DNA of 64,000 nucleotides, taken from positions 1 to 64,000 of the forward strand of contig PHBU01000007.1 of NCBI GenBank assembly GCA_002840685.1, read 5' to 3'. Numbering within the stretch: position 1 is the stretch's first letter; each line of letters begins with the position of its first letter. The translations under genes and the position numbers were made by a program. The notes below the pieces were generated by a model, which was given only the letters and a program-made list of their open reading frames with translations, did not search any database and had not been told where the DNA came from. Below, piece after piece: positions 6,735-21,679 of this stretch. The stretch is from Chloroflexi bacterium HGW-Chloroflexi-6 (lineage in GTDB: Bacteria > Chloroflexota > Anaerolineae > Anaerolineales > Villigracilaceae).

Positions 6735-8078
6735 TTACAGGATTCGTTTGAGCGTTTTAACCAATACCGCATCCTGCTCGGGCAAAACGGTGCGCGGGTC
6801 GAAGAGCACCCGGTCGTTTTCGGTGCGGGCGATGATGGCCGGGCTTTGTTTGCGCAGCTTTGCTAAAAAGGCGTCGGGTTTGGGGATATTGAGGCTTAAT
6901 ACGTAGGTGGGCAGGTTCTCACCCGGCAGCGATCCGCCGCCGACGGTTGATTCAGCCGGAACGATCTCACCGTAACCTGTCTCGCGCTGCCAGTGCGCGG
7001 CCCTGGCTTTGAGTGACTCCGGCGTCTGCGAGATCATCTGCCAGATCGGGATCTCACGCTCTGCTTCGTCTTTCAGGTAATGCAACAGGGTGGCGCTGAT
7101 GCCTGCCAGACAGGTTTTATCGGCGCGGACGGCTCTCGCCAGCGGGTGTTTTTTTATTTTATCGAGCAGGGCTTTTTTGCCGATGATGATCCCGGCTTGC
7201 GGCCCGCCGAGCAGCTTGTCGCCTGAGAAGGTGACCACATCTGCCCCGGCGGCGAGCGATTCAAGGATGGTCGGTTCGTGGGTCAGCCCGTATTTTTCAA
7301 CGTTGAAGAAGGTTCCCGAGCCGAGATCGTCGATAACGATCGCTTCGTGAGCGTGGGCCAGCTCGCAAATTTCTTTCAGGGATGGTTCTTCGGTGAACCC
7401 GACGATCTTAAAGTTCGAGCGGTGAGCGCGCACGACAACGGACTGGGAAGCGGACTCGGCTAGCGCTTCTTCGTAATCAGACGGGTGGACTTTGTTGGTG
7501 CTGCCGACTTCGACCAGTTTTGCGCCGCTTTGCTTCATCACATCCGGCACGCGGAAGGAGCCGCCGATTTCGATCATCTGGCTGCGGGCGATGATGGCGC
7601 GTTTGCCCCTGGCCAGCGCGGATAGCGCCAGCAGGATGGCGGCGGCGTTGTTGTTGACGACAACGGCCGCTTCGGCCCCGGTCAGGCGCTGCAGCACAGA
7701 TTCGGCGTGGACGAGGCGTGAGCCGCGTTTGCCGGTTTTCATGTCAAATTCAAGAGTGGAGTAGCCCGCTGAAACGGCCTGCATGGCCTCGATAGCGGAT
7801 TTGCTCAACGGGGCGCGGCCCAGGTTGGTGTGGATGATGACGCCCGTGGCGTTGATGACCGGCTCCAGCGTGGGACGCGTCCAGGCTGTTAGGCGGGATT
7901 CGGCCAGGGCCAGGAGGGCCTGGTTTGACGGGACATCCGCACCCGCGCGGACATCCGCCCGAATGGCTTCGAGGCTTTCGCGCATGGCCTGGGTCACCAG
8001 CGGCCGGCCAAAGTTGCGGATGAGTTCTTCCGCAGCCTGTAGCAGTTGTTCAACGGAGGGGATGTTACGGAGCGTCAT
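6735..8078 (-). CDS. selA: L-seryl-tRNA(Sec) selenium transferase
   Basis: NATGVIIHTNLGRAPLS and FSGDKLLGGPQAGIIIGKK PLP-binding region. Confidence 0.93.
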   Translation of the reverse strand: MTLRNIPSVEQLLQAAEELIRNFGRPLVTQAMRESLEAIRADVRAGADVPSNQALLALAESRLTAWTRPTLEPVINATGVIIHTNLGRAPLSKSAIEAMQAVSAGYSTLEFDMKTGKRGSRLVHAESVLQRLTGAEAAVVVNNNAAAILLALSALARGKRAIIARSQMIEIGGSFRVPDVMKQSGAKLVEVGSTNKVHPSDYEEALAESASQSVVVRAHRSNFKIVGFTEEPSLKEICELAHAHEAIVIDDLGSGTFFNVEKYGLTHEPTILESLAAGADVVTFSGDKLLGGPQAGIIIGKKALLDKIKKHPLARAVRADKTCLAGISATLLHYLKDEAEREIPIWQMISQTPESLKARAAHWQRETGYGEIVPAESTVGGGSLPGENLPTYVLSLNIPKPDAFLAKLRKQSPAIIARTENDRVLFDPRTVLPEQDAVLVKTLKRIL

Positions 8079-16984: not shown

Positions 16985-17887
16985 TTACGGGAGCAGCACA
17001 AACACCGTTATGATCGCCAGTTGCGCCAGCGGATAGTAGCTGGCGCGGTCGAAAAGCCGGCCCGCCTGGCGGCTTTCACGTTTCTGGTAGAGCTGGATGC
17101 CGGGCAAGATCAGCAGGAACAGGCCGGCCAGGCCTGTCGCGACCAGGTATGGGATGCCGAGCGCCTGGGGAGACATGAGCGGCAGGAACAGACTGGTCAG
17201 AACTGTCAGTGTCAGGGTGATGACCACCAGCATCCCGGCTTTTTGCGGCCCAAAAGTCAGAGGAATGGTCTTGGCCCCAACGCGCTTGTCTTCCTCGACA
17301 TCATTCCAGTCGGCGGGGATATTTTGCCCGCCGATTTCCCAGAGCATCAGCCAGGCCAGCATGAGCAGCAGCAACGGCAGGGATGGCTCGGGGTTGACCA
17401 CGAAAACAGCTGCAACCGGCCCGCAGGATTTGACCAATCCGCTGACCAGGGTGCGCCAGTAGGTCACTTTCAACAACCGGCAGTAGATCACTTCCAACAC
17501 GGCGGCGGCCAGCACAATGAAAACGATGGACGGGTTGAGCAGGTAAGCCCCAAGCAGCGCCAGTCCGTACCAGAAAGCGAACCAGGCCAGCCCGCCCCGA
17601 AAGCTGACCAGCTTCTGCGCCAGCGGATAACGCATATCGGAGGCTTCGACCGAATAGCCCTGGTTAATACCGCCCGGCCCGGTAAATTTTTCCTGGTCGG
17701 TTTTGACCCCGGCCAGATCGTTCAGGGCGTAGATGGCGGTGTAGCCGGCAAAGGCGGTCAACAGCGAGAGCAGCAGGGTCTGCCATGCGGGGAAGGCCCC
17801 CAGCCAGAGCAGGGCTGTGAAGCCGGGCATGGCTACATCCAAAACGCCGTGGGTGGTGCGGGAGAGGGCGAAGAAACGAGAAAGCAT
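16985..17887 (-). CDS. UbiA-family prenyltransferase-like membrane protein
   Basis: NDLAGVKTD first motif, ADWNDVEEDKRVGAKTIPLTFG second motif, multi-TM; start chosen at MLSRFFAL. Confidence 0.8.
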   Translation of the reverse strand: MLSRFFALSRTTHGVLDVAMPGFTALLWLGAFPAWQTLLLSLLTAFAGYTAIYALNDLAGVKTDQEKFTGPGGINQGYSVEASDMRYPLAQKLVSFRGGLAWFAFWYGLALLGAYLLNPSIVFIVLAAAVLEVIYCRLLKVTYWRTLVSGLVKSCGPVAAVFVVNPEPSLPLLLLMLAWLMLWEIGGQNIPADWNDVEEDKRVGAKTIPLTFGPQKAGMLVVITLTLTVLTSLFLPLMSPQALGIPYLVATGLAGLFLLILPGIQLYQKRESRQAGRLFDRASYYPLAQLAIITVFVLLP

Positions 17888-17962
17888 GAGATCACTCCGA
17901 AAAAAAGTTCTTAAACACAAAGTATACGAAGGTTAAGCAAATGAAAAGGATTTCCTTCGTGT

Positions 17963-18679
17963 TTACTGTTTTTTTGATTTGATGAAATAAGCCATGTAAT
18001 TCATATCTTCTTTATCGTGGGCAACTTTGAATTTGCCTGTGAGTGGATTGTACATCAGACTGGACAGGCGCACAAAATCGAGCCCGCTCTGTTGTGACCA
18101 GGCTTTAAGCTCGGATGGGCGGATCAGCTTGCTGTAGGTGTGTGTGCCGCGCGGCAGCAGGCGCAAAATATTTTCGCCAACTAGGATGACCGCAAAAAGC
18201 GACTTGAGCGAGCGGTTGATGGTCGAGAAGAAAGCCCGCCCGCCCGGTTTGAGGGCCTGGGCGCAGGCAGCGATCACTTTGGCGGGTTCGGGAACGTGCT
18301 CGAGCATTTCCATGCAGGTGACAGCGTCGAACCCGCCTTCATTTTCCTGCGCGATCTGTTCGACCCCCTGATAAAGATAATTGATCTCCAGCCCCCCGGC
18401 GCTGGCGTGCAGGCGGGCAGCCTCCAGCGAGGGCAGCGACAGATCGCTGCCCGTTACCCTGGCCCCGGCCTTTGCCAGCGCTTCAGACAGGATCCCGCCG
18501 CCGCAGCCGACATCCAGGATGCGCGGGTTGGGCGTGTCGATATTGTCCATGATAAATTTTGTGCGCAGCGGGTTGATGGTGTGCAGCGTTCCCATCTCGC
18601 CTTTGGTGTCCCACCAGATTTGCGAGACTTTGTCGAATTTGGTGATTTCCTGATCGTCAGCGTTCGAGAATTGGGTCAT
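17963..18679 (-). CDS. UbiG-like class I SAM-dependent O-methyltransferase
   Basis: WWDTKGEMGTLHTINPLRTKFI (UbiG-like), ILDVGCGGGILSEALA. Confidence 0.88.
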   Translation of the reverse strand: MTQFSNADDQEITKFDKVSQIWWDTKGEMGTLHTINPLRTKFIMDNIDTPNPRILDVGCGGGILSEALAKAGARVTGSDLSLPSLEAARLHASAGGLEINYLYQGVEQIAQENEGGFDAVTCMEMLEHVPEPAKVIAACAQALKPGGRAFFSTINRSLKSLFAVILVGENILRLLPRGTHTYSKLIRPSELKAWSQQSGLDFVRLSSLMYNPLTGKFKVAHDKEDMNYMAYFIKSKKQ

Positions 18680-19805
18680 TTTTTATGCTTATCCAGTCAT
18701 TAAGGTTTTTTACGGCGGATTCGATTTCTTGGTAGGTAATGTCATTGATAAAAATACAGTTGCCCAGCGAATCGGGCATGGGTACGCGCTGGTAGCCATT
18801 ACGGTGCTCGACGCGCTCCAGCAGGGATTGCCACATCAGGCCGGCATCGAGAACATCTGTGTTTAGAACGATTCCCAGCTGACCGATCAGGTTGAAAATC
18901 CGGCAGGTTTCCTGCTCCGAGAGCAGATCCCGTCCGCGGGCGATCAGGGTTGAGATAACGATATCGAGCAGAACGGCTTCACCGTGCAGCAGGTGGGCTT
19001 CGTGGCGGGTTTCGAGTCCATAACTGAAGGTGTGTCCAAAATCGACCTTGCGCGCCAGGTTTTCTTCGTACAGGTTGGGCTCAAGTTCCTCGAGCATGCC
19101 GCTGATGGCGCGGTTGAGAATTTCTCCGCCGCGTTCATCCTGAAAGTTGATCGCGGCGCTCTGCGCCCCGTGATATTCGAGCAGGCTGAACAAGCCGGTG
19201 TCTTTGATGACGGCCAGTTTGATGATCTCGCAGATCCCGTTCAGGATGTGACGGCGGGGCAGGGTCTTCAAAAAGTCCCGATCGAGGAAGACCCGCAGCG
19301 GCGGCTCGAACGAGCCCAAACGATTTTTGTGACCGTTGAAATTGATGCCGGTTTTGATGCCGACCGAAGCGTCGATGTAACCCATCAGCGTGGTCGGAAC
19401 TTTGATGTGCGGCACGCTGCGGCGGTAACTGCTGGCGATGAAGCCGACCACGTCGGTCAGCACCCCGCCGCCGACGGCGATGATCGGTTCGTCGCGGCGG
19501 TGGATGGGGAAGGAATCCAATTCGTACAGGATGCCGAGATAGGCATCGACTGTTTTGTTTTCCTCGCCGCCGGGGAAGGTGATGATTTTTGCTTCGATCT
19601 CGTGGTGGGCGAAATAGCTGTGGATCTTGTCCCCGTAGAAGCGGGCGACGTTGCCATCGACGACAACAAACCTGCGTCCGCCCCGGATCTTGCCTACCGA
19701 TAAAAGGGCTTCGTTTTGCAGTTCGAACAGGTTCGGGGCGTTGACGATCTCGTATTCTATTGGGCGCTGGTAAACAACGCGCCAGCGGCTGGTTCCACTG
19801 GTCAT
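18657..19805 (-). CDS. sedoheptulose-7-phosphate cyclase / 3-dehydroquinate synthase superfamily enzyme (2-epi-5-epi-valiolone-synthase-like)
   Basis: EPIIAVGGGVLTDVVGFIASSYRR, VPTTLMGYIDASVGIKTGINFNGHKNRLGSFEPP, MLEELEPNLYE, DFGHTFSYGLE, LLHGEAVLLD; start chosen at MTSGTSRW. Confidence 0.8.
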   Translation of the reverse strand: MTSGTSRWRVVYQRPIEYEIVNAPNLFELQNEALLSVGKIRGGRRFVVVDGNVARFYGDKIHSYFAHHEIEAKIITFPGGEENKTVDAYLGILYELDSFPIHRRDEPIIAVGGGVLTDVVGFIASSYRRSVPHIKVPTTLMGYIDASVGIKTGINFNGHKNRLGSFEPPLRVFLDRDFLKTLPRRHILNGICEIIKLAVIKDTGLFSLLEYHGAQSAAINFQDERGGEILNRAISGMLEELEPNLYEENLARKVDFGHTFSYGLETRHEAHLLHGEAVLLDIVISTLIARGRDLLSEQETCRIFNLIGQLGIVLNTDVLDAGLMWQSLLERVEHRNGYQRVPMPDSLGNCIFINDITYQEIESAVKNLNDWISIKNDPILER

Positions 19806-20284
19806 ACCACTTCCAGCCAATCTGGTTTCGCATCCAGCACCCGTCGGGCAACTTTTTGGGCGAGTTCCAGGTTGTGGTTCATGTAATTGCCGCATTGCTC
19901 GATGCTGGTATAGGGCACCGCCGTGGCGGTTAACATATCGTTGAAGATGTTCGCCAGCACGCTGCAAATTTTCTCCGAGCGGCCTTCGTTGAGCAGGACA
20001 ATGTAAAAACCGGTCTGGCAGCCCATGATGCCGATCGACAGGAAGTTTTCGGGCAGGTAGCGCTGCAAGCCTTCGAGCAGGAAATGCTCAACGGAATGTA
20101 ATTCAGTCGACGATAAATATTCGCCGGCATTCGGTTTGTTGACGCGCAGGTCGATGCAGTAGGCCACATCGCCGCTTTTGCCAGGGTTGGCCGAGCGCAG
20201 CTTGACGCGCGGCGCTTTGAGCAGGCGATGATCCAGTTCGCCAACGGTGCGGACGTCCCAGCCGAGTTGTTGGATGTTGATCAT
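19802..20284 (-). CDS. luxS: S-ribosylhomocysteine lyase
   Basis: ELDHRLLKAPRVKL, DLRVNKPN, HSVEH zinc motif, MGCQTGFYIVL, QCGNYMNHNLELAQKVA. Confidence 0.88.
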   Translation of the reverse strand: MINIQQLGWDVRTVGELDHRLLKAPRVKLRSANPGKSGDVAYCIDLRVNKPNAGEYLSSTELHSVEHFLLEGLQRYLPENFLSIGIMGCQTGFYIVLLNEGRSEKICSVLANIFNDMLTATAVPYTSIEQCGNYMNHNLELAQKVARRVLDAKPDWLEVV

Positions 20285-20305
20285 GGTGACTCCTATTTTT
20301 TTATA

Positions 20306-20427
20306 TGTCATTGCGAGCCCCGCAAGGGCGAAGCAATCTCCCGTTTAGCGGACGAAACTGGTCGAAAAGCAAATACCGTTTTATCGGAGATTGCTTCAGC
20401 GGTAAAGACCGCCGCTTCGCAATGACA
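20306..20427. repeat. TGTCATTGCGAG-type inverted-repeat element (MITE/REP-like)
   Basis: TGTCATTGCGA...GAAGCAATCTCC ... GGAGATTGCTTC...TCGCAATGACA. Confidence 0.8.
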
Positions 20428-20440
20428 TCAAGTTCGTGAA

Positions 20441-21679
20441 TTAAACAAATTGCGACAAGTGCCGGTAGCTGTCGGCCAAAGCCTTTTGCCACGATTCGAC
20501 GTGGTGGTAGAGCTCGACCGAGCCATAGCCGGAGAATCCGTTCTCGGTCAGGGCCTTGAAGCTGGCGGCGAGATCGAGCGTGCCTTCACCGGGAATCTCG
20601 TGGAAGTGAACGATTCCCGTCAGGGTGTTGGCGACCATTTTATCGACCAGTTGCGGGCCGCGCACGCCGCGCAAATAGCCGAGGATGGGTTTGGTGCGTT
20701 CGAGCACATCATAACTCAGACCGGGGACGGAGATCAGGTAGGTGAAAAACTCATCGTCGAAGGGGGATGCGCCAGCGTAGAGGCCGGGGTAGTGGACAAT
20801 TTCGGGGGATTTCTGGATTCCGGCCTCGGCCAGGAGCGCATCCAGCCGTTTGCGTTGGGCGAGGCCGGGGGTCTGGTCGCAGAAATAGCGCGGGAAATGC
20901 CGGTCGAGCAGGGCATAATCCGCTGTTTCGGGGAAATAAACGAGATAGGATGCAAAATCGAGGTCGAAGGACAGGTCCTGGGCGTCTTTGACGATCTTCA
21001 GGTTGTAGCCCTGGCGGGCGTCTGAGATGTGCAGGTAGCGGGTAAAGGGCGCGGCTTGGGCCAGGGTTTCGATGTAGTTTTTCTCGGAGCAGTAGGCGTG
21101 GGTGATATCGACGTGCAGTTGGAAGCGCGGCGAGTTGATCTCGTTGATCAGCGACAGGCCCTGTTCCATCGTTTCGATGAACATGCCGGGTTCCGGTTCG
21201 ATCAGCAGGGTGATGTCTTCATCGTCTCGGATCTCGGCGATGCACTGTTGGATGCTGTCGATGAGCAGTTCGCGCGGGTTGACGGATGGGTTGCTGACGT
21301 GCTCGTCGCGGATAAATCCGCTGCCGAAGGTGACCAGGTCCACACCCAGTTGGCGGGCAACGTGGATGCCGCGCTTGACCAGGGCGATGCGCCGTTTGCG
21401 CCCGGCCAGGTCGGGGGCCATCAGGGACGGTTCGTGCGGGCGCTGGGGGGTGAAAAAGTGCGAGGCGGTTGCCACACAGGCGGCCCTGACGCGGCCCGCG
21501 TCGAGGCGCTTTTTGACCGCGGCGAGCGTTTCGTCGGAGATATCGAAAGCGTTGAACTGGTCGCGGTGAAAGGAAATTTCGATGCCGGGGTAACCGGCCT
21601 TGTCGACTTCATCGATCGCGGTCAGGAAATCGAGATTGGTCAGGCCGAAGGTGCTGTAACTGAGTTGGATCTTGCCCAT
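20441..21679 (-). CDS. TIM-barrel sugar phosphate isomerase/epimerase family protein
   Basis: IQLSYSTFGLTNLDFLTAIDEVDKAGYPGIEISF; xylose-isomerase-like TIM barrel; start chosen near MGKIQLSY. Confidence 0.75.
   Translation of the reverse strand: MGKIQLSYSTFGLTNLDFLTAIDEVDKAGYPGIEISFHRDQFNAFDISDETLAAVKKRLDAGRVRAACVATASHFFTPQRPHEPSLMAPDLAGRKRRIALVKRGIHVARQLGVDLVTFGSGFIRDEHVSNPSVNPRELLIDSIQQCIAEIRDDEDITLLIEPEPGMFIETMEQGLSLINEINSPRFQLHVDITHAYCSEKNYIETLAQAAPFTRYLHISDARQGYNLKIVKDAQDLSFDLDFASYLVYFPETADYALLDRHFPRYFCDQTPGLAQRKRLDALLAEAGIQKSPEIVHYPGLYAGASPFDDEFFTYLISVPGLSYDVLERTKPILGYLRGVRGPQLVDKMVANTLTGIVHFHEIPGEGTLDLAASFKALTENGFSGYGSVELYHHVESWQKALADSYRHLSQFV

Follow-up and report, generated by a model that had tools for sequence, protein, structure and literature searches.

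LuxS serves across microbiology as a marker of autoinducer-2 (AI-2) signalling and of methyl-cycle recycling. In Chloroflexi bacterium HGW-Chloroflexi-6, a luxS homologue is found between the genes of a TIM-barrel protein and of a sugar phosphate cyclase, which raises the question of what a LuxS protein does at such a place. The window analysed here is the whole stretch from position 1 to 64,000 of contig PHBU01000007.1 (GCA_002840685.1), and the genes in question occupy 16985-21679 on its minus strand. The evidence is strong that they form a real and strictly conserved pathway of five genes, essentially undescribed so far, whose LuxS is atypical, and the chemistry of this pathway is put forward as a testable proposal. 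A survey of 2016 had reported no LuxS in Chloroflexi or in M. tuberculosis (PMC5029033).

A five-gene operon in four phyla

The genes are transcribed in the order TIM barrel, luxS, cyclase, ubiG and ubiA. The xylose-isomerase-like TIM barrel (PF01261, 121.6 bits) has 412 amino acids (aa) and is encoded at 20441..21679 (-). It is followed by the LuxS homologue of 169 aa at 19802..20311 (-) (PF02664, 108.9 bits), the EEVS-type sedoheptulose-7-phosphate cyclase of 382 aa at 18657..19805 (-) (DHQ_synthase PF01761, 119.5 bits), the UbiG-type O-methyltransferase of 238 aa at 17963..18679 (-) (TIGR01983, 253.6 bits with a cut-off of 103) and the UbiA-superfamily prenyltransferase of 300 aa at 16985..17887 (-) (PF01040, 109 bits). 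The ubiA start is a conserved ATG, with an upstream alternative TTG at 17920. The stop codon of luxS and the start codon of the cyclase gene share the 4-nt overlap ATGA at 19802..19805 (-), an arrangement of translational coupling, and the reading frames of the cyclase and ubiG have 23 nt in common. All five reading frames and both overlaps were found where the initial annotation of this DNA had placed them.

The conservation of the operon was analysed in two sets of genomes. When the genome of the window and 150 relatives were searched for the cyclase, it was found at 62-100% identity in 23 genomes (its own included), all in one family, and each of the 23 had the complete operon with its gene order unchanged. 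When about 85,000 species genomes were scanned, 103 stretches passed, and the best 80 of these were taken as loci; some of the Chloroflexota loci come from genomes that are also in the relatives set. The complete set in order was present in 79 of these 80 loci, from four phyla, and only L098 (7122-7160) had no ubiG between the cyclase and ubiA genes. The exact 4-nt overlap of luxS and the cyclase gene was observed in 59 of the 73 measurable loci and an overlap of the cyclase and ubiG genes in 66 of 70. The five-gene linkage is far beyond chance, and the pairing of luxS with the cyclase, for which a neighbourhood search had been recommended in the initial annotation, was conserved in both sets.

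The 80 loci are distributed over Pseudomonadota (40), Chloroflexota (36), Mycobacterium (3; angelicum, szulgai and simulans) and Eremiobacterota (1; Vulcanimicrobiota in NCBI). The pseudomonadotal carriers are Gamma- and Betaproteobacteria, mostly Lysobacterales (Rhodanobacter, Thermomonas, Dokdonella, Luteimonas) but also some members of the Burkholderiales and strain HdN1. Cultured carriers include Rhodanobacter, Lysobacter and strain HdN1. In L119 (4132-5483, M. simulans) and L065 (2492-3708, a Chloroflexota metagenome-assembled genome, MAG) the TIM-barrel gene was matched in two separate pieces, which are possibly broken frames or assembly errors.

The five proteins agree in their pairwise distances (Spearman 0.65-0.83), and in the cyclase tree the mycobacterial cyclases nest within a Chloroflexota branch. 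Both are expected if the operon moved whole, and it looks as if it has been inherited and transferred as a unit. Between the window and locus L096 (genome G003), LuxS is 81% identical, compared with just 67-69% for the cyclase, UbiG and UbiA, and this gap suggests a recombination inside the operon. When the neighbourhoods of the loci were compared, no sixth conserved gene was found beside the operon, and the conserved genes include no kinase, nucleotidyltransferase, ATP-grasp enzyme or oxidoreductase.

The LuxS homologue of the operon

The residues of LuxS were compared in 81 operon sequences (the 80 loci and the window) and 35 canonical sequences, using B. subtilis numbering; the B. subtilis reference agrees with the Protein Data Bank (PDB) sequence over the aligned part. 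The catalytic and metal residues D10, H11, R39, H54, E57, H58, C84 and C126 were kept in 81 of 81 operon proteins. In contrast, the positions S6, F7, R20, A61, D78, S80 and P81, near-invariant in the canonical sequences, were mostly replaced, the canonical letter being retained at S6 in 5, at P81 in 7 and at A61 in 13 of the 81. The alignment register at S6-F7 is uncertain, and the motif is absent either way. D78 to P81 may contribute to the substrate pocket. Since no usable residue list for the substrate-pocket contacts of LuxS was found in the literature, the pocket argument rests on conservation. The operon proteins form a separate clade (100/96), and the LuxS of the window scored under every curated cut-off for S-ribosylhomocysteine lyases, the best score being 112.1 bits against 158. 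With a profile of the operon LuxS (E <= 1e-10), 12 matches were obtained in 400 genomes of the phylum, and all were operon carriers.

For the genomic context, 32 operon genomes were examined for LuxS, AhcY and Pfs, the nucleosidase that makes S-ribosylhomocysteine. Each of the 32 had a single LuxS, that of the operon, and each had AhcY. Pfs scored over the cut-off in five of them, the three mycobacteria and two more. It was not found over the cut-off in the other 27, which include the genome of the window, two Chloroflexota genomes that consist of a single contig (G012 and G063) and HdN1, whose genome is complete. Because AhcY is always present, Pfs is mostly missing and the seven positions are mostly changed, a LuxS that recycles a methylation by-product is unlikely. 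The operon LuxS probably does not act as an S-ribosylhomocysteine lyase and has probably been recruited for its chemistry. We propose that it acts as a metal-dependent ketol isomerase or beta-eliminase on an intermediate of the pathway. To our knowledge, this would be the first function of a LuxS protein on a substrate other than S-ribosylhomocysteine. If so, luxS annotations would be misleading in Chloroflexota, Mycobacterium and Rhodanobacter-type bacteria, and the fold would have been reused for new chemistry.

The cyclase and its partner enzymes

The best solved relative of the cyclase was the EEVS ValA (PDB 4P53, E 1.7e-94), followed by the cyanobacterial cyclase 5TPR, which has a DDGS fingerprint (3e-74), and by AroB proteins from 8e-39. 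Three positions, which we take to distinguish EEVS (Leu/Asp/His) from DDGS (Glu/Ala/Thr), were mapped onto the alignment; part of this active-site comparison used reference sequences from the alignment to the solved relatives. The window cyclase has L241, D255 and H334 at these positions together with the conserved metal ligands E193, H258 and H274, and the same fingerprint letters and the ligands were present in 21 of 21 operon sequences examined. EboD and AroB differ at the three positions from the letters of both EEVS and DDGS. The window cyclase also has the signatures VPTTLMGY..KTGINFN..KNRLG and MLEELEPNLYE, which are largely invariant across the family. The EboD sequences in the tree are encoded on plasmids next to eboE and further ebo genes, and one DDGS sequence came from a Nostoc locus that also contains an O-methyltransferase gene and a D-Ala-D-Ala-ligase-type gene. 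The operon cyclases formed one clade (100/100) inside the clade of EEVS and DDGS (99/97) and outside EboD and AroB; the tree leaves the inner branching order open. By its active site and its place in the tree, the operon enzyme is a sedoheptulose-7-phosphate cyclase of the EEVS type, neither AroB nor EboD.

An identity as AroB was rejected on a score of 212.6 bits against the curated aroB cut-off of 305 and on the position outside the dehydroquinate synthase clade. The genome of the window has a separate AroB-type protein on contig C36, encoded in a 547-aa open frame. A role of the operon in the shikimate pathway is ruled out by the curated score, the cyclase tree and this separate gene, and a DDGS or mycosporine role by the presence of Leu/Asp/His instead of Glu/Ala/Thr. 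The initial annotation had called the cyclase EEVS-like rather than AroB and had named a grouping with AroB as the observation that would overturn this. The ValA match, the fingerprint, the tree and the separate AroB-type gene all agree with its reading, and the cyclase branches outside the AroB clade.

The ubiG product carries the EMLEHV motif (EXXEH as EMLEH) and matches the PDB structure 4kdc with 294 bits. No other UbiG was found in the twelve operon genomes tested from Chloroflexota (nine) and Mycobacterium (three). A second UbiG was present in 15 of 20 other operon genomes, so the operon UbiG is not simply a ubiquinone gene. In the proteobacterium HdN1 (L141, complete genome) the operon ubiG product is the only UbiG over the cut-off, and there it might also serve ubiquinone synthesis.

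The prenyltransferase has the motifs NDxxGxxxD, in which one of the usual aspartates of the first motif is lacking, and DWNDxxEDKR. Its AlphaFold2 model (predicted local distance difference test, pLDDT, 90.6) matched archaeal UbiA and digeranylgeranylglyceryl phosphate (DGGGP) synthase structures in Foldseek. It is assigned to the UbiA superfamily by this predicted fold and the two Asp-rich motifs. The TIM barrel has an insert at about residues 230-345. E161, D191, H217 and E389 are invariant in the alignment, and by homology we take them to be a putative Glu-Asp-His-Glu metal site. Its AlphaFold2 model (pLDDT 95.1) matched UlaE, IolI, AsbF, ketose epimerases and other sugar epimerases and dehydratases, and we propose that the protein is an isomerase or dehydratase.

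A proposed pathway, its alternatives and known systems

The initial annotation had suggested a prenylated or methylated cyclitol-type metabolite, which is the natural reading of the gene set. We suggest that the operon is dedicated to a prenylated, O-methylated and probably aromatic compound made from a C7 sugar phosphate, a reading to which we give an even chance and in which the substrates, the products and the order of steps are inferred. As its active site indicates, the cyclase would convert sedoheptulose 7-phosphate to 2-epi-5-epi-valiolone (EEV, C7H12O6) or a close epimer. The TIM barrel and the LuxS-fold enzyme would then catalyse a metal-assisted ketone migration and the loss of two waters, which would lead from C7H12O6 to C7H8O4, an aromatic trihydroxybenzyl alcohol. 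The first dehydration might be a beta-elimination of the tertiary hydroxyl, like that from dehydroquinate to dehydroshikimate, and the second an AsbF-like aromatisation, comparable to that from dehydroshikimate to protocatechuate. LuxS can be expected to shift a carbonyl group and to catalyse beta-elimination next to a ketone bound to its metal, which would suit either dehydration, with the TIM barrel taking the other. UbiA would prenylate the ring and UbiG would methylate one hydroxyl of the resulting catechol.

In favour of this proposal, the TIM-barrel superfamily includes AsbF, which aromatises dehydroshikimate. Since no sixth gene is conserved, the five enzymes seem to suffice. The lack of a conserved kinase, nucleotidyltransferase, ATP-grasp enzyme and oxidoreductase speaks against a pseudo-sugar or mycosporine product and is in keeping with an aromatisation that is redox-neutral. 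The most specific form of the proposal, a LuxS-fold dehydratase or isomerase in a shikimate-independent aromatisation of a C7 cyclitol that leads to a prenylated, methoxylated quinol-type lipid across several phyla, is tentative and somewhat doubtful. The operon predicts a widespread, undescribed prenylated C7-cyclitol or aromatic lipid; if the aromatisation takes place, this lipid or quinone would belong to a new class. Its occurrence in cultured strains makes the lipid prediction directly testable.

Several observations weigh against the aromatisation proposal and lead to its rivals. LuxS keeps every catalytic residue and might still cleave S-ribosylhomocysteine, five of the 32 operon genomes do carry Pfs, and the genome of the window has five PNP_UDP_1 paralogues, where a divergent S-adenosylhomocysteine nucleosidase could sit. 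An ordinary lyase would remove the by-product formed when UbiG methylates its substrate and would make AI-2 on the side, as the initial annotation had in part assumed. The S-adenosylmethionine-dependent methyltransferase in the same operon is in line with this, as are the intact catalytic and metal residues and the Pfs of the five genomes that have it, three of them mycobacterial. We consider an ordinary lyase improbable, given AhcY in all 32 genomes, no Pfs over the cut-off in 27 (G012, G063 and HdN1 among them), the replacement of canonical residues and scores under the curated lyase cut-offs. The other role offered at that time, the supply of a C5 fragment, would have LuxS make 4,5-dihydroxy-2,3-pentanedione (DPD) that is joined to the cyclitol. 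DPD formation is a known reaction of the LuxS family, and luxS lies between the isomerase and cyclase genes. This route needs the same substrate, S-ribosylhomocysteine, and the enzyme known to make it is missing from most hosts. Nor is a gene for an aldolase or for any other enzyme of condensation conserved nearby, which leaves the route very unlikely.

The order TIM barrel, LuxS, cyclase could also mean that the first two enzymes act before the cyclase. They would epimerise or dehydrate a heptulose phosphate, and the end product would be a non-aromatic prenylated, methylated cyclitol. The ATGA coupling of luxS and the cyclase gene in 59 of 73 loci agrees with such an order, and the relatives of the TIM barrel include pentulose-5-phosphate epimerases; since both epimerases and dehydratases belong to its superfamily, the aromatisation is a proposal. 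In addition, Tyr262 of the cyclase, beside the active site, is Pro in EEVS and DDGS, a possible sign that its product is altered and need not be EEV. At the other active-site columns the cyclase agrees with EEVS, whose substrate is unmodified sedoheptulose 7-phosphate, and known UbiG substrates are polyprenylated catechols, which require an aromatic ring. We regard an action before the cyclase as unlikely. A variant of the Ebo cluster (EboC, EboD, EboE) with luxS and ubiG added is hardly to be expected. The UbiA, sugar phosphate cyclase and TIM-barrel superfamilies do co-occur in Ebo clusters, and the TIM barrel had a weak BLAST match to one EboE (E 9e-5). However, the cyclase differs from EboD in its fingerprint and does not fall into the EboD clade, the TIM barrel scored 11.7 bits against the EboE cut-off of 250, no EboC model matched, the UbiA protein has no significant BLAST similarity to EboC, and no eboA, eboB or eboF gene is conserved beside the operon. 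Membership in the Ebo family is ruled out by the curated models, the tree and the neighbours; canonical EboE or EboC proteins in the flanking genes, the finding that was to speak against a pathway of its own, were not detected by the curated models or by BLAST.

Some genes near the operon were also considered. Prenyl diphosphate synthases in L099, L102, L119, L136 and L141 are probably incidental, and those read lie on the opposite strand. The window also contains a selA-type selenocysteine synthase gene at 6738-8078 (PF03841, 430 bits). The nirS neighbourhood of the Chloroflexi genome SURF MAG 42 lists the same five open reading frames in the same order (Table A1 of PMC8756737); no comment on their function, distribution or LuxS was found in that paper. 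In genome G034 (contig C74), nirS at 18889-20061 is likewise a few kb from the operon. The link to denitrification that the paper suggests was rejected, since NirS occurred in 7 of 23 operon-positive and 15 of 67 operon-negative family members (Fisher p 0.57). A literature search of papers outside subscription found no interpreted link of luxS to such a cluster.

With canonical LuxS, the operon protein shares the fold family and the metal ligands H54, H58 and C126, plus E57, C84 and R39, whereas it differs by its own clade, the seven mostly changed positions, the mostly missing Pfs partner and its fixed place in a biosynthetic operon. The C7N aminocyclitol clusters (validamycin ValA and relatives) have the same cyclase active-site fingerprint; the aminotransferase, ROK kinase, glycosyltransferase and dehydrogenase genes of a plasmid example are not conserved in the operon. 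The mycosporine and gadusol pathways (DDGS or EEVS; PMC4426668) also combine a C7 cyclase with a subsequent O-methyltransferase, whereas the operon has no DDGS Glu/Ala/Thr and no ATP-grasp ligase but a membrane prenyltransferase and luxS.

Among known systems, the BE-40644 and Ebo clusters come closest to this pairing of a cyclase and a UbiA enzyme (PMC5133447). The BE-40644 cluster of Actinoplanes has an EEVS and a UbiA-type farnesyltransferase (PMC5133447). As proposed here, an EEVS feeds a prenylated product via a UbiA-superfamily enzyme; BE-40644 is one actinomycete terpenoid with further tailoring, whereas the operon is a fixed five-gene set in four phyla. We know of no luxS or ubiG in the BE-40644 cluster. 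The scytonemin-associated Ebo cluster eboA-F is spread over many phyla and has a proposed isoprenoid-cyclitol product (PMC5133447, PMC6282210). Like the operon, it brings together UbiA, sugar phosphate cyclase and TIM-barrel genes in many phyla. The operon differs from it by a cyclase of another clade and fingerprint, the absence of EboA, EboB and EboF, a UbiA and a TIM barrel that are not EboC and EboE, and the addition of luxS and ubiG.

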